Part shown: piece by piece, positions 14,297 through 18,071 of the stretch
Position numbering within the stretch: the first letter of the stretch is position 1
Layout: every line of letters begins with the position of its first letter
NCBI RefSeq assembly: GCF_000160695.1
Contig: NZ_GG694006.1
Coordinates: 732,932-796,931, forward strand
Reading direction: 5' to 3'
Source of the DNA: Centipeda flueggei ATCC 43531
Lineage (GTDB): Bacteria > Bacillota > Negativicutes > Selenomonadales > Selenomonadaceae
Length of the DNA stretch: 64,000 nucleotides
The notes under the pieces: model-generated
What the model was told of the DNA's origin: nothing
Database searches by the model: none
Seen by the model: only the letters and a program-made list of their open reading frames with translations
Made by a program: the position numbers and the translations under genes

Positions 14297-14373
14297 TGGT
14301 CGGAACGACAAGATTTGAACTTGCGGCCTCTTCCACCCCAAGGAAGCGCTCTACCAAGCTGAGCTACGTCCCG
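14297..14373 (-). tRNA. tRNA-Pro (anticodon GGG)
   Basis: A complete cloverleaf can be drawn on the minus strand: acceptor CGGGACG / CGTTCCG, D arm GCTC...GAGC, anticodon stem CTTCC/GGAAG with loop TTGGGGT (anticodon GGG), T arm with GTTCAAATC, and an encoded CCA end. It reads CCC/CCU proline codons. It has its own promoter and terminator. Confidence 0.96.
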
Positions 14374-14383
14374 AACAGTGGCT

Positions 14384-14412
14384 ATTATACCGACCTTTTC
14401 ACTTCTTGTCAA
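14384..14412 (-). promoter_or_regulatory. Consensus promoter of tRNA-Pro
   Basis: TTGACA (14407-14412) and TATAAT (14384-14389), spacing 17, exact consensus on the minus strand, 10 bases before the tRNA. The -35 box overlaps the stop codon of the swrB-like gene. Confidence 0.9.
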
Positions 14413-15251
14413 TCCTTTTGTGTCATCTGCTTCATCAGCCGCAGAGCCCCGATCTCGACGCCAGTCTCGCGTGCCACCTGTTCGATGGTGCGCCCGGCAC
14501 GCAGGAGTGCACGCGCCTTGATGATGGTCTCATCCTCCGGCAGTTCTTCCTCCTCAGTCGGCGGAGCAGGCTGCTCCATCCGTTCCGGCGGCATCTGCTG
14601 CACGGAGGCTGCAGATGCCGGCATAACTGCGGATGAAACAGACGGCGGCACGGCACGCGGCGAAGGAGATGCCTGCGCCGGCGGTGGCGGTATCGGTGCA
14701 GGTGCCGCAGGTGGTGTCCCACCGCGCATTTGTTCACGCAGGATGGACTGGTGCAGCACAGCAGCAAAAGCATCGCCGTCCGTACGCTGTGCCTCTGTCG
14801 GCTGCATGACAAGGGGAGGCACCTGTCCCCCGAGCACTCCGCTGATCTGTGGGGACGATGCCGGCGAAACAGGAACTGCGGCACGTCGCTGCGGCTGAAT
14901 GGCAGGAGGCAATGTCTGTCCCATGTCACTCAGACGACGTTCCAGCTCCTCAATGCGCTGATGAAGTGCCCATTCAAGGCGCTGCGCCTCTGCAGCACGG
15001 GTCTCCAGCTGAACACGCCGATCATCCGCCTCGCGCAGAAGTCCCTCAAGTTTGGTCACATGACTGCCAAGACGCTTGATGATGGTGTCTGCGGACTGCT
15101 GCAGTTCCTTTTTCAGTTTCTCAATGGACTCTGCCAATTCCTCGTCATCCTCCTCGCTGCGCTGGCGGCGATGGATGACATAGCGCACGATGAGGAGCAG
15201 GACTGCTCCCATGATGATGAGTGCGCCCAGAATTTCGGTGATGGAAATAAT
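14409..15251 (-). CDS. SwrB-like (DUF6115) membrane-anchored flagellar protein; apparent AUU start
   Basis: Layout matches Bacillus SwrB: one N-terminal membrane helix, a coiled coil (about residues 30-105), a long Pro/Ala-rich low-complexity linker, and a C-terminal helix-turn-helix-like motif (RALLRAGRTIEQVARETGVE) typical of DUF6115. SwrB promotes maturation of the export apparatus and in Bacillus also sits just downstream of the motility sigma gene. An in-frame TAA (15267-15269) lies directly before the GGGAGG (15261-15266), and the first ATG (15210-15212) would cut the membrane helix in half and has no ribosome site. No ATG, GTG or TTG lies between. I therefore place the start at ATT 15249-15251, 9 bases after GGGAGG. 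If the internal ATG is used the protein is 267 aa. Confidence 0.82.
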   Translation of the reverse strand: MISITEILGALIIMGAVLLLIVRYVIHRRQRSEEDDEELAESIEKLKKELQQSADTIIKRLGSHVTKLEGLLREADDRRVQLETRAAEAQRLEWALHQRIEELERRLSDMGQTLPPAIQPQRRAAVPVSPASSPQISGVLGGQVPPLVMQPTEAQRTDGDAFAAVLHQSILREQMRGGTPPAAPAPIPPPPAQASPSPRAVPPSVSSAVMPASAASVQQMPPERMEQPAPPTEEEELPEDETIIKARALLRAGRTIEQVARETGVEIGALRLMKQMTQKD

Positions 15252-15271
15252 AGCAGGCCGCCTCCCTTATC

Positions 15272-15604
15272 CTATAAGCTAATATCGAGGTGCACACCAC
15301 GGTTGGGGTCGACGGCAAGACGCTGCAGCAATTCCTGTCCATGGTCTTCCTGCCTTCCGCGCCTCCCTTGACCGCCGCGTCCGCCCTGCCGGCGCTCACG
15401 CTCAGGATCGTCCTTGACGCGCGCATCGTCACTTGCCTTTTCCTTCGCACGCACCTGCTGGCGGGCAAGTTCCGCATCCTGCTTCTGTCGGAGAGATTCA
15501 AAGGTCTGCTGAACGTTGACCTGGTTCTGCATATTGCTTTGAACATTTCCCGCCTCATTGGACTGCGGAATCATCATCTGCATACTGATTGGCGTGACAT
15601 TCAT
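15272..15604 (-). CDS. Small polar protein in the flagellar operon, function unknown
   Basis: The 110 aa product is hydrophilic, Gln/Arg/Glu/Gly-rich, with an N-terminal Met/Gln/Asn-rich segment and a charged central helix (about residues 35-75). No signal, membrane helix or known family is evident. AGGAGG with 8-base spacing supports the start. It lies between fapA (15 bases upstream in transcription) and the swrB-like gene (20 bases downstream), so it is part of the fliA-fapA tail of the motility operon. Confidence 0.75.
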   Translation of the reverse strand: MNVTPISMQMMIPQSNEAGNVQSNMQNQVNVQQTFESLRQKQDAELARQQVRAKEKASDDARVKDDPERERRQGGRGGQGRRGRQEDHGQELLQRLAVDPNRGVHLDISL

Positions 15605-15619: not shown

Positions 15620-17218
15620 TTATAGGATACCTACGACGACTTCTCCTTCGACAACCTGAAGCTTTGCATGGCGAAGTTCACTGTCAACGGACTTTTTCAC
15701 CCCACTAATGACAATATTTACCCCAGGGAAAATAGTATCCGACGCCTCAATGGAGCCATTCTTCATCTGGTCAAGGGCATCATGCATCTCCTGCAGTCTC
15801 TCCTGCATCCGCTTGATCTTGGCCGCCAGAGGAAATTGCAGATGTGTCAGCTCAACGAGCTGTTCACGCCGACGCTCCGACAGACTCATAAGAGGTTGTT
15901 TCTTCAATGTCTCAAGAGAGCGACGTACTTCCGACAATTGTTTGCTCGATGTTTGGTAATCCTTCAAAAGTGTGTCATATTCCTGCTTGAGATTCGGATC
16001 TACACCGACCTGCAGATTTGTTTGCACAAAGAATGCATTCCCAAAGATCTTTCCTCGGATGGATTCTCCTGCACCGACGGAGCCGCCCGTGATAAAGCCG
16101 CGCTGCCCCTCAACAATGACATGGTGTCCTGCTCGCATCTCAGAGTGAAGTACCACATCGTTGACAAAGATATCCCGCCCCGCCATAATATTTGCGTTTT
16201 CGACAAAGGCGATACTCACATCCTCGCGGGCACGAATTTTTCCCACATTCATACCGCGGATGCCGCCATGCACAACGATGTTGCGCCCCTCGACCTCCGC
16301 GCCGCCGATCATTCCCTTGATCTCGACATCACCCGCCGCCTTGACGGAGAATCCACTCTCAACATCGCCGCAGATCTCGACACTGCCGGCAAAGTCGATG
16401 TTGCCCGTACCAACATCGACACCGCTGTCGATGACAAGATGCGGATCGACGCTGATCTTCTTTCCATCGTCGACGATCTGCCCATCAATCATCGCAACGA
16501 GTTCGTTGCCATTGACCACCTTGGTGTTTTTCCCTTGTGGAAGATTGATCGGCTTTCCAGGTCTCGGGGCGACCTCTTCACCGAATACATTCTTGCCGGG
16601 TGTTCCAGCCGTCTCCGGGATGCGTACGACAAGGACATCGCCCGTGACTGCCTTAATAAAGATGTTCATATCCTTATAGTCGACGCGGTCATAGGCGCGC
16701 TCGGCAGGACGTCCCTTGGCCCCCATATCGAACTTTCTCTCAATGCGTGCATCCTCTCCCGCAATCGGTGCCGTTCCACGCGCCGCCATAAACGGCGTCA
16801 GACGTGCAACGCCGCGGCCAATGGCAGCACGGTCAATGCCATAGACGACTTTCTTTGCTCTGAGTCCATCCAGTACATCGGAAACACTTGGCGGCAAGTT
16901 TCCCTTGCTGTCGTCAAAACGAATCGCCGCCGACATTCCATCCGCGGCAATCTCGACAGAAAAGGGAATGACAAGATTCTCTTCTCCATCTTCCGGGGCA
17001 GGATCGAGTTTGGTCTCTATTCCCTCTGCTGCACGCACAAGGTATGCGAGCTGGAGGACATCATAATCTGTGACTCCTTCACGCTCCAGCTTCTCACGAA
17101 GAGACGAAAGGTCAACAACTTCTGTCCCCTCTTCCTCCGGATAGATGGTAAGATATGCACCGTCTTCACGCAGGATGAGCTGAAACCCCTCTTTTCGTTC
17201 CCCAACGATACGTTCCAT
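15620..17218 (-). CDS. fapA: FapA family protein (DUF342), flagellar assembly protein A
   Basis: The 532 aa protein has the DUF342/FapA layout: an N-terminal mixed domain, a long beta-solenoid centre with Gly/Val/Asp-rich repeats (for example 'DSGVDVGTGNIDFAGSVEI', 'GDVEIKGMIGGAEVEGRNIV'), then a C-terminal coiled coil (about residues 390-490) and a small terminal domain. Relatives affect flagellar assembly or cell-pole placement with FlhF-like factors. The start at 17216-17218 follows AAGGGAG; seven in-frame residues upstream are unsupported. It is directly downstream of fliA. Confidence 0.88.
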   Translation of the reverse strand: MERIVGERKEGFQLILREDGAYLTIYPEEEGTEVVDLSSLREKLEREGVTDYDVLQLAYLVRAAEGIETKLDPAPEDGEENLVIPFSVEIAADGMSAAIRFDDSKGNLPPSVSDVLDGLRAKKVVYGIDRAAIGRGVARLTPFMAARGTAPIAGEDARIERKFDMGAKGRPAERAYDRVDYKDMNIFIKAVTGDVLVVRIPETAGTPGKNVFGEEVAPRPGKPINLPQGKNTKVVNGNELVAMIDGQIVDDGKKISVDPHLVIDSGVDVGTGNIDFAGSVEICGDVESGFSVKAAGDVEIKGMIGGAEVEGRNIVVHGGIRGMNVGKIRAREDVSIAFVENANIMAGRDIFVNDVVLHSEMRAGHHVIVEGQRGFITGGSVGAGESIRGKIFGNAFFVQTNLQVGVDPNLKQEYDTLLKDYQTSSKQLSEVRRSLETLKKQPLMSLSERRREQLVELTHLQFPLAAKIKRMQERLQEMHDALDQMKNGSIEASDTIFPGVNIVISGVKKSVDSELRHAKLQVVEGEVVVGIL

Positions 17219-17283
17219 AATACACTCCCTTGTCCTCAAAATTGCGCTTCGATTACAACGATTTTCGTTGGGGCGATGCGCTG

Positions 17284-18033
17284 TTATTCAACATCATTCA
17301 TACGTGCAAGCGATCCGCGCATACGGAAAATCGCCTTTGTATGCAGCTGCGAAATACGCGCCTCAGAGAGGTGAAGAATCGCCGCGATTTCCTTCAGTGT
17401 CATTTCATCATAGTAGTAGAGGGCAATGACGGTGCGCTCCTTCTCGGGAAGCTTTTCAATCGCTGCTGCAAGGGTCTCCTTGACCTCCGTCCACTCTGCA
17501 TGTTCTACGGGACCGTCTTCCAATGAGGCCTGCGTGTCTGCACGCAGGTATTCCTCCAGAGGAATGACGGTGGCAGCACTGACCTGACTTTCCAGGTGAT
17601 GCAGTTCCTCGATTGACAGGTTAAGTTCTTCTGCCAGTTCTTTATCTGTCGCTGCTCGGCCAAGTTCTCCTTCCAGCTGCGCAACGGTTTTTTCATATTT
17701 TTTGATGTTCTGACGCACGCTGACAGGCACCCAGTCCTTTGCGCGCAGGTGATCAAGCATTGCACCGCGCACACGCACACCTGCATAGGTTTCAAATTTA
17801 TTGCCGCGCGCGAGTTCATAGCGCTCAATCGCATCCAGAAGGCCAAAGAATCCGCTGCTCAGCAGATCCTCCCGATCGACATGCTGCGGAAGACTGATGG
17901 CGATGCGTCCAGCAACCAGACGTACAAGCGGCAGATAATACTCGGCAATGCGGTTTCGTACAGCAACGGTTTTTTCCCTCTCGTACTCCTGCCACAGTGC
18001 TTCAATATTCTCTTCTTCCGTCTGTTCCGCCAT
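17284..18033 (-). CDS. fliA: RNA polymerase sigma factor for flagellar genes (sigma-28, FliA/SigD)
   Basis: The 249 aa protein has sigma-70 region 2 (REDLLSSGFFGLLDAIERYE, then 'GVRVRGAMLDHLRAKDWVP' with its tryptophan), region 3, and region 4 with the helix-turn-helix 'MTLKEIAAILHLSEARISQL'. The RVRGAM and DWVPVSVR motifs are typical of FliA/SigD. I chose the ATG at 18031-18033, 9 bases after GAGGAG; ATGs at 18039 and 18042 are possible but too close to the ribosome site. A near-consensus sigma-28 promoter occurs upstream of the flgE operon at 56063-56090. Confidence 0.95.
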   Translation of the reverse strand: MAEQTEEENIEALWQEYEREKTVAVRNRIAEYYLPLVRLVAGRIAISLPQHVDREDLLSSGFFGLLDAIERYELARGNKFETYAGVRVRGAMLDHLRAKDWVPVSVRQNIKKYEKTVAQLEGELGRAATDKELAEELNLSIEELHHLESQVSAATVIPLEEYLRADTQASLEDGPVEHAEWTEVKETLAAAIEKLPEKERTVIALYYYDEMTLKEIAAILHLSEARISQLHTKAIFRMRGSLARMNDVE

Positions 18034-18071
18034 CTGCATCATCTCCTCTCAGCACTGCCAAGACACCTAGT

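Follow-up and report, generated by a model that had tools for sequence, protein, structure and literature searches.

A genus-conserved AUU codon as the very likely start of a flagellar-cluster gene in oral Selenomonas and Centipeda

The window analyzed here, a stretch of 64,000 nucleotides from Centipeda flueggei ATCC 43531, contains the end of a cluster of flagellar and chemotaxis genes. According to family hits, flhB, flhA, flhF, flhG, a YcgR-type PilZ gene, cheB, cheA, cheW, cheC and cheD are followed by a FliA/WhiG-type sigma factor gene (17284–18042, minus strand; NCBIfam TIGR02479, 252 bits for a cut-off of 189.6), by fapA (15620–17239, minus strand; Pfam FapA, E 3.7e-63, and FapA_N, E 1.9e-41), by an open reading frame (ORF) of 110 amino acids (15272–15604, minus strand) and finally by the gene under study, whose coding sequence of 280 amino acids spans positions 14409–15251 of the minus strand. 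Neither Pfam nor NCBIfam yields a family match above cut-off for the 110-aa ORF. Just downstream of the target gene, and on its strand, is a gene for tRNA-Pro (anticodon GGG, 14297–14373).

The target protein possesses one N-terminal membrane helix: Kyte-Doolittle windows of 19 residues scoring at least 1.6 start only at residues 1–11, and the hydropathy maximum beyond residue 30 is 0.81. As judged by eye, the helix is followed by a coiled-coil-like region, a proline-rich linker and a conserved C-terminal segment. In Bacillus subtilis, the swrB gene is located just after sigD, at the end of the fla/che cluster. Its product is described as a single-pass membrane protein activating flagellar export (PMC4526659). 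The first-pass annotation of the window had called the target gene SwrB-like, and this designation stands in part. The gene order agrees with it, as the target gene terminates a cluster of the flhB-flhA-flhF-flhG-cheBAWCD-sigD type to which the PilZ/YcgR gene, fapA and the 110-aa ORF have been added, and so does the single N-terminal helix; on the other hand, no SwrB model was present among the Pfam or NCBIfam hits of the protein, where only matches below cut-off were encountered. The target thus shares with its B. subtilis counterpart a single-pass topology and the proximity of a sigD-type sigma gene at the cluster end but differs from it by the interposition of fapA and the 110-aa ORF and by the lack of a family model linking the two proteins. 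'SwrB-like' fits as a statement of position resting on gene order and one N-terminal helix, and from the same context we infer a flagellar function.

The start region of the gene is bounded by a TAA in its own frame (15267–15269), which adjoins the Shine-Dalgarno (SD) sequence GGGAGG (15261–15266). Nine bases further along the minus strand lies the proposed start codon ATT (codon 1, 15249–15251), followed by a second ATT (codon 2, 15246–15248), then TCC, ATC, ACC and GAA, and the frame remains open to 14409. Past the TAA, no ATG, GTG or TTG is encountered in frame before the ATG at 15212–15210, which is codon 14 when counted from the first ATT. Both the arrangement of TAA, GGGAGG and ATT and the absence of any earlier canonical codon had been reported in the first-pass annotation, and the letters and coordinates of the window agree with it. 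Its additional argument, that the ATT start yields a full helix which the internal ATG would cut, is supported by the hydropathy of the first helix (2.65 from the ATT versus 0.5 from the ATG). With a generic anti-SD, the SD duplex amounts to -12.6 kcal/mol in the window and ranges from -11.7 to -12.6 kcal/mol in the genomes of the genus; among the best canonical sites of 642 genes, 36% reach the former limit and 18% the latter, and only 0.9% of random sites (n = 3000) attain -11.7 kcal/mol. Counting the target, the layout composed of a stop, [AG]GGAGG, nine bases and ATH is found three times when the two strands of the 1.17 Mb contig are searched. Since occurrences are so few and this one is kept in all 14 genomes of the genus, chance offers no explanation for it.

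These 14 genomes of the oral Selenomonas/Centipeda group, the window's own among them, include S. sp. oral taxon 892, S. infelix, S. felix, S. massiliensis, S. sp. FOBRC6, S. sp. F0473, S. noxia, S. artemidis and C. periodontii. The target gene is present and its start region could be read in each of them; two rows (L009 and L010) are nearly identical there, leaving about 13 independent rows. Protein identity to the window ranges from 65 to 73% in the nine of 13 relatives that were aligned. Codon 1 is ATT in 13 genomes and ATC in S. artemidis, and is canonical in none. At codon 2, ATT is found in 12 genomes and ATA and ATC in one each; S. artemidis carries ATC-ATT at its first two codons. Codon 3 invariably specifies serine (TCC or TCT). 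The SD sequence reads GGGAGG in 13 genomes and AGGAGG in one, and its spacing to codon 1 is exactly 9 nt throughout. An in-frame stop always precedes it, either as a TAA directly 5' of the SD (13/14) or, at locus L002, as a TAG two codons further upstream. A sequencing error in one genome is ruled out by the agreement of all 14. An alignment of this upstream region in related genomes had been proposed earlier as a check on the AUU start: it returned ATT or ATC in every member of the genus, never ATG, GTG or TTG, and leucine in 13/13 relatives at the position of the internal ATG, both of which support that reading.

The selection of the internal ATG in the window, or of a GTG or TTG elsewhere, is what a rule limited to ATG, GTG and TTG would presumably produce. 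Such a start appears very improbable and was rejected, as these codons are not shared among the genomes of the genus: the first of them occurs at codon 4 (three genomes), 8 (three), 14 (one), 18 (one), 22 (three), 50 (one) or 65 (two), hence at codon 14 or later in eight genomes and beyond the helix, at codons 50–65, in three. The leucine aligned with the window's ATG is encoded by CTC or CTG. Moreover, the residues upstream of the ATG are conserved as protein. The N-terminus I-I-S-[IV]-T-E-[IV]-L-G is maintained in the genus with mostly synonymous change, and the same holds for codons 3–23, where a few Ile/Val, Ala/Val and Leu/Met exchanges are found among the 14 genomes; this pattern argues for translation of the full helix. 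On the 5' side, the encoded residue varies at codons -3 (R/H/L) and -1 (V/A/L/I), but codon -2 varies little (CCT or CCG in 13/14), so that conservation has no sharp onset at codon 1. Six genomes carry a codon that might act as a local start, either GTG in position 4 or TTG in position 8. These codons are not shared, and their distances from the SD are 18 and 30 bases. For these six genomes, the conclusion of an upstream start relies on the comparison with the other eight. We conclude from these alignments that the protein is most probably translated from upstream of the canonical codons.

The choice between the two adjacent ATT codons is finer. Translation probably starts at AUU codon 1 (15251–15249), a placement that we hold with good confidence. 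Alternatively, the second AUU (15248–15246) would be the start and the first would belong to the leader; S. artemidis, with ATT at this position and ATC at codon 1, and the presence of ATT in 12/14 genomes lend this alternative some credit. It is nevertheless unlikely, since the distance of 12 bases from GGGAGG is long and since the ATA and ATC found in two genomes represent synonymous changes suited to a translated isoleucine, at odds with the ATT kept in 13/14 at codon 1. Codon 1 is therefore favored, not proven, through its spacing (9 versus 12 nt) and the two non-ATT exceptions at codon 2. Both positions are richer in ATT than other isoleucines: in 17 invariant-Ile columns (seven in the target gene and ten in the C-terminus of fapA, a small sample whose rows share ancestry), the highest count was 11/14, versus 13 and 12 at codons 1 and 2. 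ATT accounts for 33% of Ile codons in one of the two genomes counted and for 28% in the other. A conserved RNA hairpin over the start was also considered and discarded, as single-sequence folds of 80 bases differ between species and reveal no common structure by eye.

The 110-aa ORF preceding the target gene retains the ending VHLDI[ST][LF]*, with the conserved stretch LL.RLA.DP.RGVHLDI, in 14/14 genomes. Between the end of its stop and codon 1 lie 20 nt in the window and 14–54 nt across the genus. This short distance could evoke a fusion of both reading frames by frameshifting or stop read-through; the upstream stop nonetheless occupies each of the three phases with respect to the ATT (in 5, 6 and 3 of 14 genomes) and the intervening sequence fails to align, which excludes a conserved fusion of this kind, and the stop in the target gene's own frame precedes the SD in every genome. 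We consider the probability of a fusion to be close to nil. Re-initiation at the target gene by ribosomes terminating at the upstream ORF is possible.

Beyond the genus, a first search matched the target gene in 33 genomes. In the family as a whole, a wider search found homologs in 156 of 189 genomes. No homolog turned up among the listed genomes of two genera of this family, g8 (two genomes) and g10 (three), which are perhaps lineages without flagella. Start regions were read in 16 other genera of the family, one for each: the start codon is ATG in 15 and TTG in one, and in 14 cases it aligns to codon 3 of the genus, the exceptions being L022 (codon 2) and L019 (codon 4). As none of these 16 regions departs from ATG or TTG, the AUU start looks derived in the genus of the window. 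In the simplest reading of the alignment, the ancestor of this genus would have lost the AUG of the other genera, the start moving two codons upstream and becoming an AUH codon that has been kept since. The origin of the AUU start can be placed in this manner precisely because the sister genera keep AUG.

Few non-canonical start codons have been characterized experimentally, according to a study of Streptomyces (PMC5472188). The same source lists the infC gene, encoding IF3, as starting at ATT in Escherichia coli and at ATC in Streptomyces, and describes the Streptomyces sigR gene as starting at GTC and repressed by IF3, its rare start limiting dose (PMC5472188). In Staphylococcus aureus, AUA is reported as the start codon of infC and ccpN and AUU as that of cvfC1, behind extended SD sequences; reporters with non-canonical starts yielded about 10% of the AUG output in poor medium, and the AUU of cvfC1 was unaffected by the medium (PMC13009471). 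The target gene resembles infC in that its AUH codon follows a strong SD and is maintained within a clade; unlike infC, which is autoregulated by its own product, any IF3 control of the target would be one-way. With cvfC1 and ccpN, as presented in the S. aureus work, it shares a conserved non-canonical start and a strong SD, but those are other genes from another bacterial class and were demonstrated by Ribo-Ret and reporters. As with sigR, a rare start is found on a gene other than infC, although sigR, in the Streptomyces account, is a sigma factor gene with an experimentally shown GTC codon. In the genus itself, the apparent infC start in 14/14 genomes is an ATA preceded by AGGAGGTG (loci L040–L053, L042 being that of the window's genome). 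This ATA is placed 10 bases from GGAGG, versus nine at the target gene, and the first canonical codon to follow it in frame is a TTG, five codons later. Because 11 of the 14 infC loci carry in-frame canonical codons further upstream of the ATA, infC constitutes an imperfect control.

Taken together, these comparisons make it very likely that a genus-conserved AUU start is used on a gene of the flagellar cluster. Mechanistically, the strong Shine-Dalgarno GGGAGG nine bases upstream would place the AUU for initiation and the initiator tRNA would read it as fMet. Translation would then be held well below the AUG level, as with infC, cvfC1, ccpN and sigR, and would respond to IF3; the weak start would limit the dose of a membrane protein encoded beside flagellar and chemotaxis genes. 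From the published AUU, AUA and GTC starts (PMC13009471, PMC5472188) we infer a low, IF3-restrained output of the target gene. Whether this output serves an IF3-linked control of dose is a close call, and we advance such a role tentatively. The retention of AUU where relatives use AUG hints at a low output set on purpose. A broader and rather unlikely extension would make the AUU, kept since the genus ancestor, a translational governor through which the IF3 level, or the state of the pool of initiating ribosomes, would set the amount of the protein relative to its operon, infC (AUA) and the target gene forming a two-gene IF3 circuit that links translation state to flagellum assembly.

The AUU start may also be real and devoid of any regulatory role. 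This explanation, which overlaps with the AUU start favored above, supposes a weak start reached by drift, which the cell would tolerate since it needs little of the protein and since ribosomes coming off the nearby upstream ORF would re-initiate. Coupling is possible in all 14 genomes given the proximity of the upstream stop, and drift would account for the ATC of one species. A single change would however suffice to convert ATT to ATG, yet reversion has occurred in none of the 14, and ATT is conserved above other Ile codons. We regard drift as possible but doubtful.

No report of the start of the target gene was found in the literature, among the matches listed. A gene caller limited to ATG, GTG and TTG must truncate this gene. 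The locus also supplies a natural test case for the question whether selection favors weak starts as a means of limiting the dose of individual components of large assemblies whose genes lie in long operons. Such genes can be found by a simple comparative screen relying on a conserved frame, a conserved SD and no shared canonical codon. This type of survey was carried out between contig C8 of the window's genome G000 (1.17 Mb, 54% of the assembly) and the first 1.6 Mb of the genome of one relative, G013, supplemented with locus L003, and comprised 822 non-overlapping gene-like pairs. A filter based on distance to the first canonical codon alone had served badly, leaving at least 137 pairs, and two other early filters retained the target among two and seven pairs but missed infC. 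The final filter required a conserved SD of at least five bases before ATT, ATC, ATA or CTG and discarded any pair in which an SD of this kind preceded a conserved canonical start; it left 18 pairs, a lower bound for about half of the genome, as a chance canonical codon near the start hides genes. Fourteen of them were taken as internal sites, since in both genomes the frame contains canonical codons further upstream. One pair was set aside because both genomes have an ATG immediately next to the site, and so was a weak frame of 77 amino acids (57 bits) with an ATG beside the site in one genome. The last two were infC and the target gene. At infC, no canonical codon occurs upstream in G000 and one ATG is located 21 codons upstream in G013; the target is the only pair of the survey for which both genomes are free of canonical codons upstream of the site and over the seven codons that follow it.
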